Positions 41,932 to 53,736 of a DNA stretch of 64,000 nucleotides are shown piece by piece (the first letter of the stretch is position 1; each line of letters opens with the position of its first letter). The stretch covers positions 1 to 64,000 of the forward strand of contig NZ_MUNZ01000131.1 in assembly GCF_002001205.1 (NCBI RefSeq), written 5' to 3'. The DNA is from Hydrogenophaga sp. A37 (GTDB lineage: Bacteria; Pseudomonadota; Gammaproteobacteria; Burkholderiales; Burkholderiaceae_C). The notes beneath the pieces are model-generated. The model was not told where the DNA came from. It was given only the letters and a program-made list of their open reading frames with translations, and ran no database searches. Position numbers and translations under genes: made by a program.

Positions 41932-42666
41932 ATGCCAGAACAGACCGCCCCTGAAGACCACGGCGCCGAAGCCTTCTTCCGCCAGCAGCGCGGCGCCTTT
42001 GAACACACGCTCGCCACCGCCGGCCCCGAGGCGGCGCTGCTGCAGGCCTGGGACAGCTTCGACGGCAACGTGGCGATCCAGTGCGAGGGCCAACCGCCCG
42101 TGGCCTGCGGCAAAGGCTGCGCCAGCTGCTGCGAACTGCGCGTGACCGCGCTCGCGCCCGAGGTGTTCGTGCTGGCCAACTACCTGCGCGCCACCGCGCC
42201 CACGCTGGCGAGCCACGGCATCGACCTCATCACCGCCGTGCGCGAGATCGACGCCGCCACCCGGGGGCAAGACGAAACGGCGCGCGTGGCGATGCACCGG
42301 CGCTGCGCCTTCGTGGTGAAGGGCGTGTGCCTGATCCACCGCGCGCGGCCACTGGCCTGCCGTGGCCACGCCTCGCACGACCGGCGCGCCTGCGTGGACG
42401 CCGCGGCCGGGCGCGCAAGCGAAGTGCCGTTTTCCGGGCCGCACCAGATGGTGCGCATGCTGCTGCAGTCGGCCCTGCAGGCCGCCCTGCGCCAGCAGGG
42501 CCTGGCCTGGGGAGCTTACGAACTGAACCACGCGCTGGTGCTGGCGCTGGACGCACCGGACGCGCAAGCCGCCTGGCTAAAGGGTGCCGACCCATTGGCC
42601 GAGGCGGCGGTGGATCTGGATCAGCGCGAGGCCATGGCGCCGGGGTTTGACGACATCCCGCGGTGA
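41932..42666 (+). CDS. YkgJ-family cysteine-cluster protein
   Basis: 244 residues with the YkgJ CxxxCxxCC-type cluster (ACGKGCASCCELRV) and later cysteines in RRCAFVVKGVCLIHRARPLA and ACRGHASHDRRACVDAA; probably binds zinc or Fe-S. Function unknown. Last gene of the rightward unit and left border of the accessory zone; its 3' end is repeated at 48662-48772 and 51618-51657. Confidence 0.88.
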   Translation: MPEQTAPEDHGAEAFFRQQRGAFEHTLATAGPEAALLQAWDSFDGNVAIQCEGQPPVACGKGCASCCELRVTALAPEVFVLANYLRATAPTLASHGIDLITAVREIDAATRGQDETARVAMHRRCAFVVKGVCLIHRARPLACRGHASHDRRACVDAAAGRASEVPFSGPHQMVRMLLQSALQAALRQQGLAWGAYELNHALVLALDAPDAQAAWLKGADPLAEAAVDLDQREAMAPGFDDIPR

Positions 42667-42929
42667 TTGCGCTAGGCGGGTGATCAACGTGCGGGTGGTC
42701 CGGCAGGCTGGGACAGCTTTATGTCAATCCTGAAGCAGCATCTGTGGTCCTGACCTAATTTCCTATGACTTGCCGGCCAAAGCCGCTCATAGCCACCTGA
42801 AAGAAGCCTGTCAGCAAAGGGCACACACAACCAGCGCAATCGAGGCACCACGCAGGGTTTGAGACCGCGTGCGAACCAACTCCTTCTGAAGCCCACTGGC
42901 AAGCAATCAAACGAGTGCGCTTCATCGCT

Positions 42930-45900
42930 TCAAGGTGGGTCGGAAGCGTCAGGATTGGGAGTCGTGATTTCGCTCGCTGAGGAAGCCTCGCGACTGATGA
43001 AGTACCGCAGTTCCCGGTCCGCTGCCAAGATGCTCTTAGACAAGCGACTGCCCAAGATTGCTGTCAATGAATTTCGGTACTTCTGTTCCGTCTCTGTTTT
43101 CCTACGGAGACGCCAAACAAGGGAGCTGTAACGGTAAAGGGTCAAGAGATTCTGTTCATCCTCTCGGGCTTTGAACACATCCCAGAGAATCTGGTGGCAA
43201 GACTCGAACAACCCATAGATTCTTTGGTTATACAAGTAGCTGTATGCGCGAGCGCAGTCGTCGAAATTCCGCCGAGTTAGAGTTCCTGACTCATCGATGG
43301 AAAGCCTGCAGGTACGAAGCAAAGCACGTACAAAGTTGTAGTGGTCGTTATCCGACCGACCTGACAAAAGGACTTCATTCAAAAGCAGATTCTTCTGCTC
43401 GGTATTGGGTGCTACGCGTGCTAAATCAAGCGCGATATTGTTGGCAACGACCTTGCAATGCCTCTTTCGCGCTTCGGCGTAGAGCGTACGCAGTCGCGCC
43501 GTCTTGTCCGGTGATTGCTCGTTGGACACGATGACGTATCGAGCGTTGACTGCAATCTTGCCTCTGGGATTTACGCTACGGCACGCCTCAGCAGCGGCAA
43601 TGATTTCTTCAGGGGGCACCTTAAGCGCCTGCTTGCACATCGCGATGGTCAGTAGCGTGCTTTCCTTGAACGAGTTGCTCTGTCCCACCAAATTTATGTC
43701 CGTGGCGATCTGATGGGCTCGCTCGACCTGACCGATCATCCTGAGCGCACTAGCGTGCGAACTGAGCAAGGACGCCAAGCTCAATGGCTCTATCACCGCC
43801 TGCTCGGTCGGCATGGCCGACACGTAGTCCTCGAAAATCTTCACAGCGCCGTCCAGAAACTGCGCCACGCCACGGAAATGGTCCCCCTGTGTGAGTAGCC
43901 CCACAAAGGATTCCGCCAGAGCCATAGCGACCTTCACGCGACCGTATTTCTGGGATTCCGTCGCGGCTCGGGCTTCGCGCAGGATAAGTGTGCTCGCATT
44001 GTCAATCGCCAGGGCGCCGCAGTTCGAACTCGAGAACTTCAGATCGGAAGGCGATTGGATGCCTCGCAGAGCCCAGTTGTCGCCAAAGTACAGCGCCAAC
44101 GCCTTCGAATTCAGCGTCTTCAATTCCGCCGCGGACAGGCTCTGCACAAGGTACTCGCGCACCGGACGGCATACGGTGAGTGCATTGCCTTGTTCTTGAG
44201 GAGCCGTTCCGCCCTCCAGCGACGTCATTATTGGATTTGAGTCGATCAAACCACGCTCTAGCAGAAGCGTGGCGTGACTGGGGTAGAAAGCCTTCGCGTT
44301 GAAGAATCGACGCACCCGGACCAGAGGTTCGCCTTGAGGGAATAGCGACAGGACTTTAAGCAACATGGCCGCTCGGCGACTATGCTCATCTTCGGATCCA
44401 TTCAACTCTTGAATGGCTTCGACAAGTGCATGGGGAATGTCATCTGGCCGAGCCGCGGCCTTGCCCGCGATGTCAACGTCCAAGTCGTACAGCGCCTGGG
44501 TGCCAACGACCTCCATGGCTCGAAGGATCGCGTCGATGCGCGTAGCAAGTCCTCCGCTATGGCGAAAGATGCGTGTGATTGCCTCCTGCGGTAGGTTCGA
44601 CGCTTGCTTGTGACTTGTCACGTACGCCGTCACGTCGGCCTCATCCAGAGGGCGCAGTTGGGTGAAGGATCCGAGATCGGCGCGCCGCGACCGCGATCGG
44701 ATGATGACGTGCAGGTGCTCTGAGAATTCGAGCAAGGTGTTAACAATGAAGAGCAGCTCTTGCTCAAGTTGGGCTCGGTTCCCACCTTCAATATTCACGT
44801 CGTCCAAAACGAGCATGCAGGAGCGTTGATCAAGCGCTTGGCACAACTCTTCCAAGCTACAGCCCACGCGCGGCCGCACATTTGCCAAGAACGACTCTTG
44901 TCCATCAAAAGTCCCAACGGGCAAGTAATAGATCTCTGCTGTGGTTCCCAGCAGGCGTGTAGAAACGACATTTATGAACTCGTCGCCACCGGTGCCCCAG
45001 GTGTCAACAAGCCACCCCTGCCGTCCGCTGGACAACGCGGCAAGGAGAAACTGCTGTTCTTCCTTGCGCACATTTGCCGCAGCAAGCGAATAGGCATTCG
45101 TCTTTCTTAGGCTCCCCAAGATGCGCCTTGCACCTGCATTGTCGACCAGGGATACCTCGGGCGCTTTGTCGGGACCAAGAAGTGGCCCGGGGGGCAACCA
45201 CGTGGCAGCCCGAGTCTGCAAGGCTAGTTCGAAGGCGTCGTCTATTAGGACCCAATTCGGATCCGCGATGAGCCGCCGGGCGCCATCCTTGAGCGGGAAC
45301 GCGAGTCGCGGCCAGATCTTCAGAGTCCTCTCGTCAGCGCTTTTTACCAACCGCAAGAACGAGTAGCCGTGATTGCGCTGTAGACCATCGGCGACAGTCT
45401 CCAAGCCGAAGATCGACGGCGCTTGAATTGCGATCTTCGTGGCGCCACCATTGAAGCTAGACAGACCAGTGACGCTATCGTGCATGTGCCCGAACAAATG
45501 GGCACAAAAGCGCGCGTTCACATGGATCTCCGAGTTCCAATGCGCAGCCGCCTTTGAATTCAACCAAGTTACCGGGTGATGAGTGACGACAAGGTTGAAT
45601 TGATTGCTCGCAGCCCATGCATCTGGATCATCGCCAGTCACGCTCTGCAGCTGGCGTACGTGAATGTTGAGATCCCCGATCCGGTTCTTTTCGCTCAGTT
45701 GTAGCCAAGCGGAATTTAGCCCGACAAGTCCGAGCGAGGCTCCGTCCTTGTGAATACGAGCCGATACATCACCCGGCAATAAGCCGGCCTCGTCGCCAAT
45801 CAGCGAAATGGGGGTACCGGCAAGGCTCGATGTCCACTTCGTGTATGCGGCAAAAGCATTCGAGACAGTAGCCCGGTACGGTGATTCGCCGTTCTCCCAG

Positions 45901-46283
45901 AAGTCTTGATGAATGTCCGGTGTTTGCCACCAGCTCCCAAGTGCAAGAGCACATGGGTCGATCTTGGAAGGACGCTGAAGATCATGATTGCCTGGTACCA
46001 CGAACAGCTTTGGCGAGCACCCTAGCGAGTTGAATACGGCCCAAAGTTCCATCAGAGCAGCATTGAGGGCGACATACTCTTGCGGTGACGATTCTTGCGT
46101 CAGATCACCCGAAAAGATGACCAGATCCCACGCCCCCGTCTTTTCATGCTGCTGTCTAAGGTCGTTAAAGAAGACAGTTTTGAACGTCGGCCACATCCAT
46201 TTTTGGCCGGTCATTCCCATGTGGAGATCACTGAGGTGAATGACGTTGAATTGAACGCCGCGACGCACTTCTCGCTGTGACAT
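42930..46283 (-). CDS. Metallophosphoesterase-STAND-like-TPR protein, candidate defence gene
   Basis: 1117 residues. Residues ~12-300 are a calcineurin-like phosphoesterase with all metal motifs: SDLH (D19, H21), GDLT (D60), GNHD (N99, H100), THHP (H235/H236) and GHMH (H266, H268). Residues ~400-640 look like a STAND/NACHT-type ATPase: Walker B MLVLDDV (D494, D495) and a sensor-like IIRSRSRRAD, but the P-loop place reads DTWGTGGDE and lacks GK[ST]. The rest is helical, TPR-like. The start at 46283 has an AGGGA ribosome-binding site. GC is visibly lower than in neighbours. Stand-alone gene; the architecture resembles effector-plus-sensor antiphage proteins, but function is inferred. Confidence 0.75.
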   Translation of the reverse strand: MSQREVRRGVQFNVIHLSDLHMGMTGQKWMWPTFKTVFFNDLRQQHEKTGAWDLVIFSGDLTQESSPQEYVALNAALMELWAVFNSLGCSPKLFVVPGNHDLQRPSKIDPCALALGSWWQTPDIHQDFWENGESPYRATVSNAFAAYTKWTSSLAGTPISLIGDEAGLLPGDVSARIHKDGASLGLVGLNSAWLQLSEKNRIGDLNIHVRQLQSVTGDDPDAWAASNQFNLVVTHHPVTWLNSKAAAHWNSEIHVNARFCAHLFGHMHDSVTGLSSFNGGATKIAIQAPSIFGLETVADGLQRNHGYSFLRLVKSADERTLKIWPRLAFPLKDGARRLIADPNWVLIDDAFELALQTRAATWLPPGPLLGPDKAPEVSLVDNAGARRILGSLRKTNAYSLAAANVRKEEQQFLLAALSSGRQGWLVDTWGTGGDEFINVVSTRLLGTTAEIYYLPVGTFDGQESFLANVRPRVGCSLEELCQALDQRSCMLVLDDVNIEGGNRAQLEQELLFIVNTLLEFSEHLHVIIRSRSRRADLGSFTQLRPLDEADVTAYVTSHKQASNLPQEAITRIFRHSGGLATRIDAILRAMEVVGTQALYDLDVDIAGKAAARPDDIPHALVEAIQELNGSEDEHSRRAAMLLKVLSLFPQGEPLVRVRRFFNAKAFYPSHATLLLERGLIDSNPIMTSLEGGTAPQEQGNALTVCRPVREYLVQSLSAAELKTLNSKALALYFGDNWALRGIQSPSDLKFSSSNCGALAIDNASTLILREARAATESQKYGRVKVAMALAESFVGLLTQGDHFRGVAQFLDGAVKIFEDYVSAMPTEQAVIEPLSLASLLSSHASALRMIGQVERAHQIATDINLVGQSNSFKESTLLTIAMCKQALKVPPEEIIAAAEACRSVNPRGKIAVNARYVIVSNEQSPDKTARLRTLYAEARKRHCKVVANNIALDLARVAPNTEQKNLLLNEVLLSGRSDNDHYNFVRALLRTCRLSIDESGTLTRRNFDDCARAYSYLYNQRIYGLFESCHQILWDVFKAREDEQNLLTLYRYSSLVWRLRRKTETEQKYRNSLTAILGSRLSKSILAADRELRYFISREASSASEITTPNPDASDPP

Positions 46284-46540
46284 AAAGATCCCTGAAGGTG
46301 GCGGGGAGCTTCGCCGCGAGCTCCGCCTAGTGTCAATCAAGTGTACGCTCGGGACGACAAGCGGACGACTGCCGTCGCTGTTGGATACCCTCAATCTTTG
46401 CGGCATCGCATCGATCCCTCTTGGCCAATAGCGGAAGACGCTATCAACGTACAACTCGCACCCGTTAGCGCTTGATCGCTAGCGTCCAAGAGCCCGCCAT
46501 CTTTCGCCAAGCGCAACCCTTTGACAGCCCCCGATCATCG

Positions 46541-46738
46541 TCGGCGAATCTGCTGTACAGGATGGCCGTATGAAGACCCCCAAGCTCAGCCGCAGCACTT
46601 CTTGAACTTCTTCGCACTCCCGCAAGGGCAAGCATCGTTGCGACCCGCCACAGCAAGGGCGGCATCTCGACGCGCGGGCCCAGGCCCTTCCAGGTTTCGC
46701 GCAGGTTGTAGACCGTCCAGATCGCATCGCCCACGGCC
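46541..46738 (-). pseudogene. Truncated copy of the yecA/SEC-C gene 3' end
   Basis: About 198 bp matching 52985-53192, the 3' end and downstream flank of the SEC-C gene at 53032-53736. It retains AIWTVYNLRETWK and the zinc-binding SEC-C motif GRNDACPCGSAKKFKKCCG, with frame damage between them. No start. It abuts the eamA stop and marks one edge of the metallophosphoesterase insertion. Confidence 0.85.
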
Positions 46739-46740
46739 TT

Positions 46741-47664
46741 TCAGCTGCTTTGCACACCACGGGCCGCCAGCGGCCGGACCGCATCGGTTCGGCCGGCCCA
46801 CCACAGCGCCGCGCCCATCAGCAGCACGCCCGCCCACTGCGTGCCATCCAGCGCCCGGCCATAGATCGCCACATCGAGCGCGATCGCGGCAATGGGGTAG
46901 ACGAACTGCAGCAGCGCAATCCGCCCGACCTCCAGCCGCTGCATGCCGGCATAGATCAGCGCATAGGCCAAGCCGGTGTGCAGCACACCCAGCCCCACCA
47001 GCCAGCCCCAGGTGGCGGCAGGCCAACCGCCCCACTGCGCTGGCAGCCCATGCCAGGCGGGCCACCAGGCCAGCAGCAGCGTTCCGGTGGCGCACTGCCA
47101 AAACGTCAAACCCAGGGAGCTGAGCGCGCGCTGCCGTCTGGCCAGCAGCGACACGGCCGCGTAGCACACCGACCCCATCACAGCCAACGCCAGGCCCCAG
47201 GCGAACAGTTGCTGCCCTGCCGGCAGGCCGGAGCGAAGCAGCCCGGTGGCCATCGTCAACCCCGCAAAGGCACCGAAGACGCCCAGCGCCCGCGCGAGAC
47301 CCAGCCGCTCGCCGAACAGCCAGGTTCCGGCCAGCAACAACCACAAGGGCTGCAAGTGAAAAGTCACCGTCGCCAACGCGATCGAGGTCCACTGGATGGC
47401 GGCAAAGAAGCTGGCCCACATCACCACCATCAGGCTGCCCGTCAGCATTGCCACGGCCATGCCTTGGCGTGTCGGACGCAGTTCCTTGAGCCTGCCGGTC
47501 GCCAACGCATAGGCCAGCAATGCCGCGCCGCCAAAGAGGCAGCGGAAGAACACCGCGGTCAGTGGGTGCTGGCCGGCCTGCTCAAGGAACAGCCCGAGCG
47601 TTCCCATCAGCAGGCCGCCGGCCACCATCAGCCCAGCACCGGAAGAGCGTTGTGTGTCTGTCAT
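46741..47664 (-). CDS. EamA-family (DMT superfamily) transporter
   Basis: 307 residues with ten predicted membrane helices in two EamA repeats: GLMVAGGLLMGTLGLFLEQ, LQPLWLLLAGTWLFGERLGL and LQFVYPIAAIALDVAIYG. Likely a metabolite exporter; substrate unknown. The start at 47664 (MTDTQRSSGAG) precedes the first helix. It is divergent from a LysR regulator 97 nt away, which probably controls it. Confidence 0.88.
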   Translation of the reverse strand: MTDTQRSSGAGLMVAGGLLMGTLGLFLEQAGQHPLTAVFFRCLFGGAALLAYALATGRLKELRPTRQGMAVAMLTGSLMVVMWASFFAAIQWTSIALATVTFHLQPLWLLLAGTWLFGERLGLARALGVFGAFAGLTMATGLLRSGLPAGQQLFAWGLALAVMGSVCYAAVSLLARRQRALSSLGLTFWQCATGTLLLAWWPAWHGLPAQWGGWPAATWGWLVGLGVLHTGLAYALIYAGMQRLEVGRIALLQFVYPIAAIALDVAIYGRALDGTQWAGVLLMGAALWWAGRTDAVRPLAARGVQSS

Positions 47665-47761
47665 GGCAGGACTGTCAGCTGGTTCCTGAAATTCGCAAAG
47701 CGCGATATTCTTGTGTGATTGATTCGATAAACGAAACCATCTCTGTTGCAGCCAACCCGAC

Positions 47762-48628
47762 ATGACGAACCGTTCCCGTGACTTGCAGTTGGACTGGCTG
47801 CGTGCTTTCGTCGCCGCGGTCGACGGCGGTTCGCTGTCGGCGGCCTGCCGTGTGGTGCACCGCTCGCCAGCGGCACTGAGCATGCAGATCAAGAAGCTGG
47901 AGCAAGCCGCGGCGGTGCCGCTGTTGCTGCGCGATGCGCGGCGCTTTGCGCTCACACCCGCTGGCGAGCGGCTGCTACCGAAGGCGCGCGAGGTGCTGTT
48001 GGCGCACGCGGCGGCGCAGTCGGCGCTGGAGACGGTGCCCGTGACGGGCCATGTGCGTTTCGGGTTTCCCGAGGACTACGCTGCGGCCCACCTGGGGCCG
48101 GCGTTGCGGCGCTTTGCGCAGACGCACCCCGAGGTTGAGGTGGAGATGGTCTGCGCCCAGTCCACGGTGCTGATCCCGGCGCTGACGTCCGGCGATCTGG
48201 ACGTGGCCCTGGTCACACAGGACCGACCTTCGCGAGGCACCCGCCTGTTCGATGAGGCGTATGTCTGGGTGGGCCTGGCCAGCAGCCCGGTGTGGCAACG
48301 GGACCCACTGCCGCTGGCGGTGTTCGAACCGGGTTCGATGGCCCGCAAGATGCCCGAGCAGGCCCTGCGCCGCGCCGGGCGCCGCTACCGCATCGCCTAC
48401 CAAAGCCCCAGCACCGTGGGCCTGCTTGCCGTGGTTCAAAGCGGCTTGGCGGTGGCCGCCGTCAAACGCAGCTCATGCCCACCCGAGCTGGTGCAGCTGG
48501 ACGCCCGACACGGCTTGCCGCCGCTGAGCCGGCTGCAGGTCGCGGCCGTGATCGCCTCGTCTGCCCGCAAGGATGCCGCGGCGCAGGCGCTCCACGACCA
48601 TGTTGTTGATGAATTGCGGCGAGGGTGA
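47762..48628 (+). CDS. LysR-family transcriptional regulator
   Basis: 288 residues. N-terminal winged HTH (LDWLRAFVAAVDGGSLSAAC, HRSPAALSMQIKKLEQ), then a substrate-binding domain (VRFGFPEDYAAAHLGPALRR). Divergent from eamA, the usual sign of a LysR target. Its 3' 447 bp are repeated almost exactly at 51167-51613. Confidence 0.92.
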   Translation: MTNRSRDLQLDWLRAFVAAVDGGSLSAACRVVHRSPAALSMQIKKLEQAAAVPLLLRDARRFALTPAGERLLPKAREVLLAHAAAQSALETVPVTGHVRFGFPEDYAAAHLGPALRRFAQTHPEVEVEMVCAQSTVLIPALTSGDLDVALVTQDRPSRGTRLFDEAYVWVGLASSPVWQRDPLPLAVFEPGSMARKMPEQALRRAGRRYRIAYQSPSTVGLLAVVQSGLAVAAVKRSSCPPELVQLDARHGLPPLSRLQVAAVIASSARKDAAAQALHDHVVDELRRG

Positions 48629-48632
48629 GGTC
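48182..48632. repeat. Direct repeat B, copy 1 (3' half of the LysR gene)
   Basis: The same ~450 bp occur at 51167-51617 in the same orientation without gaps (constant offset 2985) and with few substitutions. Both copies are followed by a piece of ykgJ 3' end. The pair brackets the second LysR gene and the methyltransferase, so recombination between the copies could excise that segment. Confidence 0.9.
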
Positions 48633-48661
48633 GTCCTCCGCTGCTGTCTGCGCCGACGCGG

Positions 48662-48772
48662 CCGAGCGCGCAAGCCGCCTGGCTGCAAGGCGCTGACCCG
48701 CTCGCGGAGGCGGCGCTGAGTCTGGAACAACGCGAGGCCACGGCAGCGGGGTTTGACGAGATACTGCAGTGA
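48662..48772 (+). pseudogene. ykgJ 3'-end remnant
   Basis: Encodes SAQAAWLQGADPLAEAALSL and EQREATAAGFDEILQ then stop, close to the last 36 residues of the YkgJ protein at 41932-42666 (AQAAWLKGADPLAEAAVDL). No start and no cysteine cluster. Divergence is greater than for repeat B, so it is older or came from a paralogue. Confidence 0.85.
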
Positions 48773-48957
48773 GTTGGCTGCCTCGGCTTCAGCGCCAAAG
48801 CGGTCAATGTCCGGTTGATGTCCGGTTCGAAGAGGTCAGGCCCGGATGAAGCCGCCTGCACCTGCCCAGTAAGCGAGGAAAATCAAGCACTTAGCGACAG
48901 CTGGAGGGCCCAAGGTTGGCGTCAGCGATGTCCGGATCATGTCCGATTCAGTGTTCC

Positions 48958-49125
48958 TCATGTCCGGTTTGTCCGTACGTAGGCAGTAGAAGCCCCAGCA
49001 CCATCCACTCGCAACAGGCCCAGTTCTTCCATCGCCACCAAGTCGCGGCGGGCCTGCCGCTCACCCACTTCGGCGGCAAACCGATCGCGGTACTCTGATG
49101 GCCGAATGCGTTCATCGACCTTCAT
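48958..49125 (-). pseudogene. Winged-helix C-terminal remnant (Fic/DeoR-like)
   Basis: Open minus-strand frame reading RPSEYRDRFAAEVGERQARR then DLVAMEELGLLRVDGAGAST and AYVRT, which resembles the C-terminal winged helix of Fic-domain proteins or DeoR-type regulators. No Fic core is present. The stop region and 48809-48970 contain five or six copies of TGTCCGG, a short repeat of unknown meaning. Confidence 0.5.
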
Positions 49126-49146
49126 CGACCCCAGAGCAGCCGGTTG

Positions 49147-50097
49147 CTACGAAAGAAGCGCGTTGTGCCCAGCCACAACGCGTTGCCCGAGGGGACCGAA
49201 CGTTGCACTCCGCGACAACGAAGCCACGCAGCGACGCAGGCACTGACTGGCTGGCTCGGCATCAACGCGGGGATGCCACGCCTGGACCACCTGCTCAACG
49301 GGAATGGCCACGGGCAGCTTGAAGATCTCCAGCCCCAATCCGCTGGCCACCGTGCGCGCCAAGGGCTCGGGCACGCAAGCGATCAATGAAGAACGTGCAG
49401 CGGCCATCAGCGCACCGTAGGCGCTCGGCACGGTCAACACGATGCGTCTTGCACAGCCGATATCAGCGAGCAAGACATCTACCGCTTCCTTGTTCCGCCC
49501 TCGCTGGGCGATGCTCACATGCTGCTCGGCAGAAAACCGCTTCGGTGTCACACGAGCGGCCAACAAACGGTGCCCGGCCTTCGCGACGCCGACGATGCGC
49601 TGCTCGTACAGCGGCGCGGTCTTCACCTCGGGACCTGCGTCCCGCACGATGCCGACATCGAGATCAATGCGGCCTTCCCGCAAGGCCATCGAGTCACTGT
49701 CGCTTTCAGGAATGAAACGCAGCGTTGCCAGCGGAATCTCACGTTGAATTTCCGCTAACAATGCAGCCCCATAGACGATCCCCATCCCCTCGGGTGCCCG
49801 GACGATGAATTCACGCTGCATCCGAGTCAGGTCCAGCCCTCCACCTGGTTGCATCAGGACGAACGCTTCGCTGATCAGGCGCCGCACCGGCGCGCGCATC
49901 TCCTCCGCGCGAGGCGTGGGAATCAGTTTTTGGCCGGCACGCACAAGGATGGGATCGTCCAGCGCTTCGCGGATTCTGGCCAGTTTGTGGCTCATCGCCG
50001 GAGCGCTCAGGTGCATGCGTTGCGCTGCTGCGGCAACGCTGCCAGTCGTCAACAGGGCATCCAGCGCAGCAAGGAGGTTGAGATCCAACGAGTTCAT
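49147..50097 (-). CDS. LysR-family transcriptional regulator (NodD/NahR-like)
   Basis: 316 residues. N-terminal HTH LDLNLLAALDALLTTGSVAA and HLSAPAMSHKLARIREALDD, DDPILVRAGQKLIPTPRAEE as in the NodD/NahR branch, then an inducer-binding domain. Divergent from the methyltransferase gene with an ~87-nt gap, so that gene is its likely target. No close similarity to the other LysR gene at 47762. Confidence 0.9.
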   Translation of the reverse strand: MNSLDLNLLAALDALLTTGSVAAAAQRMHLSAPAMSHKLARIREALDDPILVRAGQKLIPTPRAEEMRAPVRRLISEAFVLMQPGGGLDLTRMQREFIVRAPEGMGIVYGAALLAEIQREIPLATLRFIPESDSDSMALREGRIDLDVGIVRDAGPEVKTAPLYEQRIVGVAKAGHRLLAARVTPKRFSAEQHVSIAQRGRNKEAVDVLLADIGCARRIVLTVPSAYGALMAAARSSLIACVPEPLARTVASGLGLEIFKLPVAIPVEQVVQAWHPRVDAEPASQCLRRCVASLSRSATFGPLGQRVVAGHNALLS

Positions 50098-50184
50098 TTT
50101 TTACAGGTATTCGTTCAGAACAATGCACTGTACAGAATGATCTTCAGATCGGACACTGCGCACCCCTGATCTTTGGAGACCCCT

Positions 50185-51240
50185 TTGAACCCACTCGACG
50201 CCAGCCGCACAGCCCTCGCCACGTCACTGATGCGCGCACTGCATTCGCGCCACGACCCCGCTCCTCTGCTTGAAGACCATTGGGGTGATCGACTGGTTCC
50301 CGATGCCGTTCGCACGGCGCTGTGCCAACGTGTTCTCGGCAGCATGCCGCCGACCGCGCGAGCCATGGCAGCGGCGGACCCTGCCGAACTGCTCGCCCAG
50401 TCGTTGCGTTCGAATGCCGCCTATGCCGATGTGATCACCCGGGCGCGCTATGCGGAGGACGCGCTGGAAGCCGCTGTGGAACGGGGCGTCACGCAGTACG
50501 TGATCATCGGCGCTGGCTTCGACAGCTTTGCGTATCGGCGACCTGCCTGGGCCACCAAACTGAAGGTCTACGAGGTAGACCATCCCGCGACACAAGCGAT
50601 GAAGCGACAACGTTTGGCGGAATGCGGCGTCGATGCGTCGGTGTCCGTCGAATTCATCGCCGCAGACCTTTCGGCAGAGACATTGGACTCGGCCCTGGCT
50701 CGCTCTTCATTCCAACCCAGTCGATTGACGTTCTTTTCATGGCTCGGCGTGACCATGTACCTGACCCGGGAGGCGAATCTCTCTGCCCTCGCGGCGATCG
50801 CATCGTCCACTCCGGCGGGAAGCGAACTGGTGTTCAACTACGTTGACCAAGAGGCCCTTGATCCTGGAACCCTCGTGGCGGAAGCGTTCCGCAAGCTGAA
50901 GTCGGAGGTGTCTTCCGCAGGTGAGGCGTTCTTGTCGGGCTTCGATCCGGCATTGCTCAGGGAGCAGCTGCAAACGGCGGGTTTGTTGCTCCTTGAAGAC
51001 TTGAACGGAGATCAAGCAGTCGCTCGATACGATGCTTCTGGTCTGAACGGCCTGCGGTCGGCTGCTGCCGCGCACATCGCACGCGCCCGCGTTGCGCGCC
51101 CGCGTTGCGCGCCCTTCTCCGGCGCGGATGTCTGCCTGATCCGTGCCCGAACCGGATGTCCAAGCATTGACATCTGGCGATCTGGATGTGGCCCTGGTCA
51201 CACAAGACCGGCCTTCGCGAGGCACCCGCCTGTTCGATGA
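50185..51240 (+). CDS. Class I SAM methyltransferase, LCMT/PPM1-like, with a fused C-terminal end
   Basis: 351 residues. The SAM-binding region shows YVIIGAGFDSFAYRRPAW and VYEVDHPATQAMKRQRLAEC, then FISADL-like VEFIAADLSAETLDSAL and FFSWLGVTMYLTREA, typical of the leucine carboxyl methyltransferase-like family that methylates small molecules. No ATG: TTG at 50185 has GGAG six bases upstream. The last ~24 residues are read out of frame from the LysR repeat (from 51167), so the natural end was probably replaced. Confidence 0.8.
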   Translation: MNPLDASRTALATSLMRALHSRHDPAPLLEDHWGDRLVPDAVRTALCQRVLGSMPPTARAMAAADPAELLAQSLRSNAAYADVITRARYAEDALEAAVERGVTQYVIIGAGFDSFAYRRPAWATKLKVYEVDHPATQAMKRQRLAECGVDASVSVEFIAADLSAETLDSALARSSFQPSRLTFFSWLGVTMYLTREANLSALAAIASSTPAGSELVFNYVDQEALDPGTLVAEAFRKLKSEVSSAGEAFLSGFDPALLREQLQTAGLLLLEDLNGDQAVARYDASGLNGLRSAAAAHIARARVARPRCAPFSGADVCLIRARTGCPSIDIWRSGCGPGHTRPAFARHPPVR

Positions 51241-51613
51241 GGCGTATGTCTGGGTGGGCCTGGCCAGCAGCCCGGTGTGGCAACGGGACCCGCTGCCGCT
51301 GGCGGTGTTCGAACCGGGTTCGATGGCGCGCAAGATGCCCGAGCAGGCGTTGCGCCGCGCCGGGCGCCGCTACCGCATCGCCTACCAAAGCCCCAGCACC
51401 GTGGGCCTGCTTGCCGTGGTTCAAAGCGGGTTGGCGGTGGCCGCCGTCAAGCGCAGCTCATGCCCACCCGAGCTGGTGCAGCTGGACGCCCGGCACGGCT
51501 TGCCGCCACTGACCCGCCTGCAGGTCGCGGCCGTGATCGCCTCGTCTGCCCGCAAGGATGCCGCGGCGCAGGCGCTCCACGACCATGTTGTTGATGAATT
51601 GCGGCGAGGGTGA
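51167..51613 (+). pseudogene. LysR substrate-binding-domain fragment (repeat B copy 2)
   Basis: Encodes the last ~148 residues of the LysR protein at 47762-48628 (SGDLDVALVTQDRPSRGTRL through HVVDELRRG) almost unchanged. The HTH is missing, so it cannot act as a DNA-binding regulator. In-frame codons run back to 51143 inside the methyltransferase gene. A 40-bp piece of ykgJ 3' end follows at 51618-51657. Confidence 0.9.
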
Positions 51614-51617
51614 GGTC

Positions 51618-51657
51618 GGTCCCTGGTGCTGGCGCTGGACGCGCAAGCCGCCTGACT
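51618..51657 (+). pseudogene. Second ykgJ 3' fragment
   Basis: Forty bases containing CTGGTGCTGGCGCTGGACGC and GCGCAAGCCGCCTG, matching the ykgJ segment near 42535-42580 with a deletion. It follows the LysR fragment exactly as the longer ykgJ remnant follows the complete LysR gene. Confidence 0.7.
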
Positions 51658-51720
51658 GCATGGCAGGCAGTGAAATAGCTTGGCCAAGAAATTTTGAAAT
51701 GTCTTTCGCTCGGTCATCGT

Positions 51721-52053
51721 TCACTCGGACTGCCGCCCGAGCACGATGATCATCATCCCCAATAGGCTTACCGCCACACCGACCCAGTCCAATGGCGTGG
51801 GGCGTACTTTGTCCACAAGCATCAGCCAAACCATCGCGACGCCGATGTACACGCCGCCATAGGCCGCGTAGACCCGACCGGCTGCGGTCGGATGCAGTGT
51901 GAGCAACCATGCAAACAGCGCCAGACTGAATGCCGCCGGAACGAGCAGCCAAGCTGACCTGTCTTGTTTGAGCCAGAGATACGGCAGGTAGCAGCCGACG
52001 ATTTCGGCCACTGCAGTAAAGACGAACAGGAGGAATGTTTTAAGGAGTTCCAT
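51721..52053 (-). CDS. YnfA family small membrane protein
   Basis: 110 residues, four predicted helices: [60 protein letters not shown] and [16 protein letters not shown]. Full-length YnfA (UPF0060), an SMR-like family with reported drug or cation efflux activity in some bacteria. Divergent from the MerR-linked pair; the shared gap holds a MerR-type promoter. Confidence 0.92.
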
Positions 52054-52074
52054 GCGGAGATTGTCAATGGCCTC

Positions 52075-52105
52075 TTGACCCTCAAGCCACTTGAGGTCCT
52101 ACCGT
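52075..52105 (+). promoter_or_regulatory. MerR-type promoter with 19-bp spacer and operator dyad
   Basis: -35 TTGACC (52075-52080) and -10 TACCGT (52100-52105) are separated by 19 bp, as in metal- or drug-responsive MerR promoters. The spacer holds the perfect dyad CCTCAAG-CCA-CTTGAGG (52080-52096). It lies 40 bp upstream of the small membrane protein gene, which is followed by merR. Confidence 0.75.
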
Positions 52106-52144
52106 ATCGGTGTGGGCGTTGTGCCCTCGCATCGGAGATACGAC

Positions 52145-52498
52145 ATGAAACTTTGGAAAGCGGCTCTCGGCGTTGGCGCAGCATGTGCGGCCTGCTGTGC
52201 AGTTCCCTTGCTCGGCGGTGCTGCCGCTCTGACCATTGGCTCTGCCTCGATGGCTGCGACCGGATCTGCTTTGCTCGCCTACGCAGATGAGTTTGCGCCT
52301 TTGGCGTTCGTGCTGCTGGCGCTTGCGTCCGTAGGCGGCGGCCTCATTTTTTGGCGCAGGCACCAACAACGCGCAGAACCACCGCATCGGGTTGCTCAGG
52401 ACCATGAAATGCAAAACCCAGCCTGCGCGTTGCCCATCGGCGCCACGCAAGATGCCGAGCAAAAAGCTTGCGGCTGCGCACCCGGCGCATGCAGATGA
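52145..52498 (+). CDS. Small Cys-rich membrane protein linked to MerR (MerT-like)
   Basis: 117 residues, two hydrophobic segments: GVGAACAACCAVPLLGGAAA and FAPLAFVLLALASVGGGLIF. The vicinal cysteines in the first helix and the C-terminal CGCAPGACR recall mercuric-ion transporters (MerT/MerC), though it is not a clear family member. GGAG precedes the ATG. It probably handles a soft metal ion and is controlled by the MerR encoded 14 nt downstream. Confidence 0.7.
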   Translation: MKLWKAALGVGAACAACCAVPLLGGAAALTIGSASMAATGSALLAYADEFAPLAFVLLALASVGGGLIFWRRHQQRAEPPHRVAQDHEMQNPACALPIGATQDAEQKACGCAPGACR

Positions 52499-52511
52499 CT
52501 AGGATGGCGGC

Positions 52512-52976
52512 ATGAACGCAAGACTTTCGATTGGCTTCGTTGCCCGCCAGACCGGTTGCACGGTACCCACCATCCGTTACTACGAGGACATTGGGCTTAT
52601 GCAGCCGGCCGACCGGACGGAGGCTGGTCAGCGGCAGTTCAATGAGGGAACGATTCGCCGCCTTGCTTTCATCCGGCGTTGCCGGGACCTCGGCTTCTCG
52701 ATCGATCAGGTGCGCGAATTGGTTGGACTTGTTGATGAGCCTGATCGGCCCTGTGCAGAGGTGCGTGACATCGCGGCGCTGCACCTCGTCGAGGTGCGGC
52801 GCAAGCTGGACGAACTGAAGGCGCTGGAAGCCAGCCTCTGCGCCTTCGTGTGCAGTTGCGAATCGGCGTGCGTTGGCGGACCCGCAGTCGATTGCACGAT
52901 CCTCGAAAGCTTGGCCATTCCAGCGGACCAAGCGCAACGAGTTCGACAAGGCGGAGACGGTTGTTGCGGATTCTAG
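52512..52976 (+). CDS. MerR-family regulator
   Basis: 154 residues. N-terminal HTH with TVPTIRYYEDIGLMQPADRT and LAFIRRCRDLGFSIDQVREL, a dimerisation helix, then a Cys-rich C-terminus (CAFVCSCESACVGGPAVDC and GGDGCCGF) suited to metal sensing. The MerR-type operator upstream is its likely binding site. Which metal is sensed cannot be told; Zn/Cd/Pb or Hg types are plausible. Confidence 0.9.
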   Translation: MNARLSIGFVARQTGCTVPTIRYYEDIGLMQPADRTEAGQRQFNEGTIRRLAFIRRCRDLGFSIDQVRELVGLVDEPDRPCAEVRDIAALHLVEVRRKLDELKALEASLCAFVCSCESACVGGPAVDCTILESLAIPADQAQRVRQGGDGCCGF

Positions 52977-53031
52977 GAACCGACTTCGGCGAATCTCCTG
53001 CGCAGGATGGCTGTGTGAACCCCTCCCGCAC

Positions 53032-53736
53032 TCAGCCGCAGCACTTCTTGAACTTCTTCCCGCTCCCGCAAGGGCAAGCATCGTTGCGGCCCGGCGCAGC
53101 CGCAGCGTGTTTCACCGTCTTCACGCGCGCGCCCAGGCGCTTCCAGGTTTCGCGCAGGTTGTAGACCGCCCAGATCGCATCGCCCACGGCCTGCATGCGC
53201 GCTGCGCTCACGCGGGGTGGGCCTTGCTGGTCTTCGTAGGCATGCAGGGTGGGTGCGCCGGTGTCGGGCAGGGTGAGCGCGCGCAAGAGCTTGAGCGCCG
53301 CCTCGCGCCACTGCTGCGCCTGGGCGTTGCGTGGGCCAGCCCATTCTTCGGGCCAGGCGACCACGGCGGCCATGAAGCCTTGCGCCCAGCGCTGGGCGAA
53401 GGACCCGGCGCCTTCGCTCAGTTCGGGTTGGTAGGCGGCCGGGTCGTCGAGCGCGCTCACCCGGGTGTCCAGCGCCTGCTCCACCAGCGTCCAGCGCCGC
53501 GCCCACAGATCACACACATCGCCGGGCACGGCCTCGGCCGCCAGGCCGAGCAGGCGGGGCCAGTATTCGGCGGGTGCGATGGCGCGGCGGCAGCAGACCA
53601 GGGCCGCCATGAAGCCTTCGCAGAATTCCCAGGCGGGCGTCTCGGGGAAGGCCTTTCGCCGCGCCTTGAGCCAGGCCTCCAGCGCGGCAAAGTCTTCGGC
53701 GCTCAGGGGCATCAGTTCGGTGGTGACGGTGTTCAT
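53032..53736 (-). CDS. YecA/UPF0149-family protein with SEC-C zinc motif
   Basis: 234 residues. N-terminal UPF0149/YgfB-like helical domain (LEAWLKARRKAFPETPAWEF, LLGLAAEAVPGDVCDLWARR) and a C-terminal SEC-C motif GRNDACPCGSGKKFKKCCG that binds zinc and, in SecA, SecB or ribosomes. Start overlaps the DUF2779 stop by 4 nt. Right border of the accessory zone; its 3' end is duplicated at 46541-46738. Confidence 0.88.
   Translation of the reverse strand: MNTVTTELMPLSAEDFAALEAWLKARRKAFPETPAWEFCEGFMAALVCCRRAIAPAEYWPRLLGLAAEAVPGDVCDLWARRWTLVEQALDTRVSALDDPAAYQPELSEGAGSFAQRWAQGFMAAVVAWPEEWAGPRNAQAQQWREAALKLLRALTLPDTGAPTLHAYEDQQGPPRVSAARMQAVGDAIWAVYNLRETWKRLGARVKTVKHAAAAPGRNDACPCGSGKKFKKCCG

Follow-up and report, generated by a model that had tools for sequence, protein, structure and literature searches.

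The window analysed here, that is, the whole 64,000-nucleotide stretch forming positions 1 to 64,000 of contig NZ_MUNZ01000131.1 of Hydrogenophaga sp. A37, carries on its reverse strand a complete gene (42930..46283, (-)), the 1117-residue product of which is probably a STAND-like switch that acts against phage as a single protein, with a metallophosphoesterase (MPE) as its effector. The account we consider most likely is that of a real gene, occupying a variable genomic site and encoding a STAND-like effector switch directed against phage. At the level of sequence, a role in defence is suggested by the metal motifs of the phosphoesterase, the exchange of the effector among relatives, the STAND-like core, the defence genes adjoining several relatives, the patchy distribution of the gene and the precedent of the DS-8 system. 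What surprises most is the widespread loss of the P-loop lysine, together with the A-tract found in relatives at the junction between the effector and the remainder of the protein, here termed the chassis.

The reading frame of the gene was confirmed from the ATG at 46283 to 42930; directly 5' of this codon stands a putative Shine-Dalgarno-like AGGGA, read from the sequence (46289..46293, (-)), and an alternative longer reading is possible from a TTG at 46454. The product is organised as MPE, STAND-like core, winged-helix-like region and alpha-solenoid. The original prediction described a single gene lower in GC than its surroundings, and the values agree (0.557 for the gene, 0.649 for the window, 0.724 and 0.667 for the two adjoining genes); a DNA search of the own genome returned the gene itself as the sole match. 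The same prediction of a complete calcineurin-like phosphoesterase with all five metal motifs (SDLH18, SGDLT58, GNHD98, VTHHP233 and LFGHMH263) was borne out by the motifs, by the MPE fold and by the Pfam scan, in which Metallophos PF00149 (4.5e-12, residues 13-269; 45477..46247, (-)) was the sole match at E <= 1. The modelled MPE fold matches Rv0805, SMPDL3A and purple acid phosphatase, the VIA-align fold rows excluding the NTPase core, which is accordingly to be taken as barely tested by that tool and not as absent. In both PADLOC and NCBIfam every best-matching stretch of the protein falls within the MPE, the PADLOC family PDC-S60 at 2.4e-16. A second MPE family, mostly of about 1063 residues and comprising seven loci (L004-L010) and L020 from Alphaproteobacteria and one IMG/VR contig, shares only the MPE with the window protein, and GxxxxGK[ST] is absent in all eight of its members.

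The chassis (residues ~405-1117) looks like a STAND-like core followed by a winged-helix region and an alpha-solenoid, judging from profile comparisons and a model of moderate confidence, and to this extent the earlier plan of an effector, a STAND-like centre and a helical C-terminus was right. The core is placed at residues 405-600, with approximate limits (44484..45071, (-)), on the basis of hhalign to NACHT and NB-ARC proteins and of the alpha/beta elements in the model; the winged-helix-like region (residues 618-716; 44136..44432, (-)) is recognised from the secondary structure of the model and named from its position behind the core, and the TPR-like solenoid (residues 757-1102; 42978..44015, (-)) includes a conserved C-terminal stretch of the chassis. 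In pairwise hhalign comparisons, with single sequences as templates, the chassis profile aligned with a TIR-NACHT protein (E 0.002) in such a way that its degenerate P-loop fell on the canonical one, and over 339 columns with a SIR2-NB-ARC protein (L080, E 1.9e-4), the aligned part beginning behind the P-loop. Foldseek of the model gave as best PDB match the STAND-TPR protein 6mfv (E 8e-7) and as second the human SAMD9 (E 4.2e-6); a second model, of the chassis alone, was poor and was left out of the fold searches. No match with its best stretch in the chassis was obtained in Pfam, PADLOC or NCBIfam, phmmer of the window protein against PDB sequences gave none, and the three matches of an hmmsearch of the chassis (best E 0.07) were taken as chance.

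Within this core a canonical Walker A with GK[ST] is missing from the window protein and an acidic Walker B is kept: the degenerate P-loop predicted from the sequence, DTWGTGGDEF, occupies residues 427-436 (44976..45005, (-)) and the Walker-B-like MLVLDDV residues 490-496 (44796..44816, (-)). The P-loop as originally noted is thus real, with the correction that loss of the lysine is common to most of the family and recalls SAMD9. Among the 18 members with a readable P-loop (L025 being left out), GK[ST] is absent in 15, including all eight MPE members, and the lysine itself is missing in 13, GKF being found in two; the three that keep GK[ST] are L078, L094 and L096, two of them near-identical. 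WGxG[GS]DEF occurs in four of the eight MPE members, and G-G-D at the P-loop is found in the window protein, G133 and G1262, the remaining members having other residues. The acidic Walker B residue, on the other hand, is present in 16/18 members (a DD pair in 6/18) and GxP in 13/18. Activation might consequently proceed without ATP hydrolysis. The chassis core appears, from sequence relationships, to descend from a working NTPase: it aligns by hhalign with the TIR-NACHT and SIR2-NB-ARC proteins and the weak matches to ATPases with canonical Walker A agree. A class-wide search with the chassis matched 34/369 genomes at E <= 1e-3, the best besides the own gene reaching 35 bits; of 11 loci from it read by eye, ten had a canonical Walker A and looked ExeA-like or of another AAA type, and these were set aside as not belonging to the family.

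Full-length relatives include those of G133 (43%), Puniceibacterium (L002, 30%), a Rhizobium plasmid (34%) and G719, while three further MPE members, on a plasmid of Pseudomonas sp. HR96 and in G852 and G1262, are read in two frames. Other relatives bear SIR2 in place of the MPE and align with the window protein throughout the chassis. In a tree of 19 chassis members the SIR2 rows group together (100/100), as do, with weak support, the MPE rows (73/64), and the three labels require at least two label changes; an exchange of effectors is therefore visible, and few events would be needed. L097, cut by an insertion sequence, and NZ_CP046050, a second Proteus record, were left out. The effector of one chassis (L101, in G1327) is a diverged SIR2_2 (2.8e-15), and the adjoining genes resemble by eye those of a conjugative element. 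Weak sub-threshold matches in relatives to DUF2802 (P0006), TPR_8 (P0004) and BREX_PglW (P0002) were not used.

The presence of the gene is patchy. At E <= 1e-10 it was found in 2/399 genomes of the family, 3/398 of the phylum and 3/198 of the family of G852, and only in the centre genome in groups of 111 and 25 genomes (in the genus of G1262, 1/25, the centre itself), these genome draws overlapping and counting the centre genomes. One search with the window protein matched nine genomes, six of them by the MPE only and one by a short piece. Of 72,556 plasmid records searched by tblastn with the window protein (P0001), 14 gave a match: two cover at least 80%, one is restricted to the MPE, and the other 11 match only within residues 906-1081, four of these being annotated as SIR2 family; the SIR2 relative P0003 as query matched 16 plasmid records. 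Neither P0001 nor P0003 matched any of 50,697 phage records. In IMG/VR there was one MPE-only relative for P0001 and no match for three other family queries, and a distant blastn of the Citrobacter gene against E. coli genomes likewise gave no match.

In eight relatives (L022, L073, L076, L077, L078, L094, L095 and L100) effector and chassis lie in two overlapping frames, and the overlap contains a run of A, of A8-A11 in seven and of A6 in L095, where it forms the zero-frame heptamer A_AAA_AAG. The shift needed to join the frames is -1 in six and +1 in two (both MPE), and the zero-frame stop follows directly behind the tract in five, after one more codon in one, and after 6 and 12 codons in the other two. 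In ten family members a single frame continues across the linker, which in some of them contains A-runs, and in L002 the frame is lost near its end and not at the linker. The longest homopolymer of the window gene itself, and its only one of at least 6, is a C6 run in the linker (45189..45194, (-)). In 12 family genes (37,300 nucleotides) there are 15 A-runs of at least 8 and seven of at least 9, compared with two and none, respectively, in 76 neighbouring open reading frames (91,456 nucleotides), a control that is qualified by the gene being richer in AT than its flanks in all eight two-frame loci.

On this basis the A-tract junction is a candidate site of recoding or phase variation. We propose, tentatively and at somewhat less than an even chance, that this is a SAMD9-like, lysine-less STAND family which swaps MPE and SIR2 effectors and in which many members make both a free effector and a fusion by way of a slippery A-tract. 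The free effector would end at or soon behind the tract, the second product would be the effector-STAND-sensor fusion, and the window gene would represent a fixed fusion without the site; the mixed directions of the shift are more readily explained by slippage or phase variation than by a single ribosomal mechanism. By analogy, the ratio of the two products could set the threshold or stoichiometry of an immune complex, much as recoding of dnaX sets the stoichiometry of the clamp loader. Recoding is described in the excerpted text of PMC10986495 in genes unrelated to this family, and searches of open-licence PMC papers listed no family that combines loss of the lysine, exchangeable effectors and a recoding junction.

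It is also conceivable, although somewhat doubtful, that the reading in two frames reflects sequencing error or gene decay in these relatives, and that the A-tract is merely AT-rich linker DNA. Long A-runs are prone to error and mutation, the gene is AT-richer than its flanks in every two-frame locus as noted above, and two near-identical copies from K. pneumoniae differ in tract length, one being read in one frame and the other in two. Codon shuffles of the effector frames, assessed over the last 90 nucleotides, nevertheless reached the observed tract in only 0-12 of 1000 cases for seven of the eight members, the tract of L095 being unremarkable (121/1000). Against error or decay also speak the spread of the eight two-frame members over three separate parts of the tree, the position of the stop directly behind the tract in five of them, and the signature of purifying selection on both halves of a two-frame pair, L078 and L094, the chassis proteins of which are 16.5% apart (dN/dS 0.068 for the effector and 0.069 for the chassis; the chassis pair L077-L024 was left out of this comparison). 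An unlikely further explanation is that effector and chassis are separately translated proteins forming a complex, as might be suggested by the annotation, which in four records puts the start of the chassis behind the stop of the effector and in one lets the two overlap; yet the tract lies within the overlap of the two open frames, and neither G852 nor HR96 shows a chassis-frame ATG within about 30 codons behind it.

The general plan of the window protein has a validated counterpart in DS-8 (NCBIfam NF053861, DefensePredictor), a single-protein MPE-NACHT antiphage system in which, according to the excerpts of PMC13092281, residues of both MPE and NACHT are needed. Both proteins combine an N-terminal MPE with a P-loop NTPase core in one chain, and their MPE parts are homologous (DS8_antiphage, 3e-13). 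That the window protein is a divergent member of DS-8, as this match, that to PDC-S60 and the similar plan in PMC13092281 (as excerpted) might indicate, is nonetheless very improbable: its score of 48.4 bits stays below the cut-off of 790, the match comprises residues 16-276 of 1117 only, and membership was rejected on these grounds. Beyond the MPE, moreover, DS-8 matches a G360 protein (568 bits) to which the chassis profile relates weakly (E 0.002), and the essential residue of DS-8, likely critical for NACHT ATPase activity according to PMC13092281, contrasts with a family mostly devoid of the lysine. The G360 match links DS-8 profile positions 289-994 with an 850-residue protein (L075, 9334-11886) with a TIR-like N-terminus by eye, and the DS-8 chassis also seems to swap effectors. 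The gene, predicted to be a candidate new antiphage system, retains its defence-like character; since an MPE-NACHT single-protein defence is already validated, its general plan is not new.

Avs5 (AVAST type 5; SIR2-nSTAND3-repeats), which has an essential canonical Walker A, GPAGSGKT, and a SAMD9-like structure in the excerpted text of PMC12931631, shares the plan of the SIR2-bearing relatives but differs from the lysine-less window protein in precisely this motif, and was therefore rejected as a label for the family. Among the PADLOC matches of eight family proteins at E 0.1 there was no family named Avs or AVAST, although PADLOC's naming of Avs5 is unchecked. The original comparison with the effector-NTPase-sensor plan of Avs and bNACHT proteins was made without sight of the SIR2 effectors on the same chassis or of the junction A-tracts in relatives. 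L080, the protein of Granulicella mentioned above, resembles the family also in its N-terminus, which matches P0003, and differs in being annotated as NB-ARC only. For SAMD9, of a family of human antiviral STAND-like proteins, a change of K to G in the P-loop, a SIR2-like domain and TPR are described in the excerpts of PMC5445408. Its SIR2-like domain, its STAND-like NTPase without the lysine and its TPR follow one another as the corresponding parts do in the SIR2 relatives. The window protein likewise has glycine at the position of the Walker A lysine, and differs in bearing an MPE instead of AlbA and SIR2 and GGD instead of GG[TS]; the likeness, however, rests on the Foldseek similarity of a model with pLDDT 62 and low TM-scores. 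Because the excerpted DS-8, Avs5 and SAMD9 papers describe them, the effector plan and the SAMD9 likeness each already have precedent.

The gene lies in a mosaic insertion zone (42533-53192), in which direct repeats of the 3' ends of the two flanking genes separate the cargo blocks. By eye the left of these genes, with its end at 42666, is a cysteine-cluster gene, and the right one, with its start at 53032, is SEC-C/YecA-like. Positions 53031-53192, at the 3' end of the right gene, recur at 46585..46739 (families D3 and D4; 93% identity in two blocks), and positions 42533-42673, at the 3' end of the left gene, at 48639..48779 (family D2; 74%), with further short pieces of the latter at 51623-51664. 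This recurrence is read as repeated cassette capture, in which the MPE gene would stand alone in a 3.9 kb cassette (42674..46584), bounded by the recurring flanking-gene ends. When the left flank was searched for in 25 genomes of the genus, the own one included, 13 had matches, short or long. Those of three congeners were long (89%, 83% and 82%), and in two of these (L091 and L093) the two flanks enclose different DNA, the contig of L092 ending short of the right flank. The zone of repeated insertions noted originally is thereby upheld. By eye, the congeners hold transporter and carboxylase genes, HipA-like and radical-SAM-like genes and a 745-residue gene. A 300-nucleotide segment of a LysR-like gene is duplicated in the zone (48174-48473 and 51159-51458, 95% identity); the 745-residue gene, of low GC, lies at the same site in L092 (5966-8203), with weak PADLOC matches to approximately its last 30 residues only.

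Nineteen loci were viewed together with as much as 12 kb of flanking DNA, less where a contig ended; one of the records was unannotated, and toxin-antitoxin neighbours (L022, L024, L078, L096) were excluded from the defence count. Recognised defence genes adjoin five: HsdR, HsdS and PDC-S18 (6.7e-143) at L002, a KAP NTPase at L073, annotated type III CBASS genes at L076, and annotated TrlF at L023 and L079, the L023 gene scoring as Ppl (4.3e-35). A HEPN gene lies near L094 and L096.

Several observations weigh against the proposed defence switch. The two hhalign results have low HH probabilities (14% and 47%), the matches of the core fold have low TM-scores (0.13-0.24) and a large root-mean-square deviation, model confidence is moderate to low (pLDDT 62 for the window protein and 53.5 for the chassis alone), and the window protein reads GGLA, lacking the P of GxP. 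Since GK[ST] remains in 3/18 members, some of the family may still use ATP. The neighbourhood of the window gene itself contains no recognised defence gene, the site in congeners holds apparently metabolic genes (by eye), and the defence neighbours, 5/19 or 7/19 if HEPN is counted, are raw counts. A prevalence of homologues in housekeeping contexts, which the original prediction named as evidence against itself, was not observed, yet 12/19 loci, the window included, are without a recognised defence neighbour. Many STAND proteins are regulators, and together with the metabolic-looking cargo of a congener this favours a STAND-like signalling or regulatory protein devoid of a phage-defence role, for example in nucleotide or stress signalling; we regard this as rather improbable, given that SIR2 replaces the MPE in relatives, that several relatives have defence neighbours, and that the family is carried on plasmids and is patchily distributed.

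In the preferred account of a phage-defence switch, the solenoid would keep the protein off at rest until a phage protein is recognised; the core, binding nucleotide weakly or as a structural ligand only, would then open and assemble without a normal cycle of ATP hydrolysis, as considered for SAMD9. The activated MPE would hydrolyse a phosphodiester or nucleotide substrate, stopping phage growth, probably along with the cell. The presence of SIR2 in place of the MPE on the same chassis points to an effector that uses up an essential small molecule or nucleic acid. In DS-8 and Avs5, by comparison, defence is lost on changing NTP-binding residues, as stated in the excerpts of PMC13092281 and PMC12931631. 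If the account is true, the family would show how a STAND switch works without ordinary ATP hydrolysis, the lysine being mostly lost while the Walker B, a sensor-like C-terminus and exchangeable effectors are kept, and would provide a tractable bacterial model for human SAMD9, the P-loop of which is similarly changed; the A-tract junction, in turn, makes it testable whether recoding sets the effector dose in a defence system.

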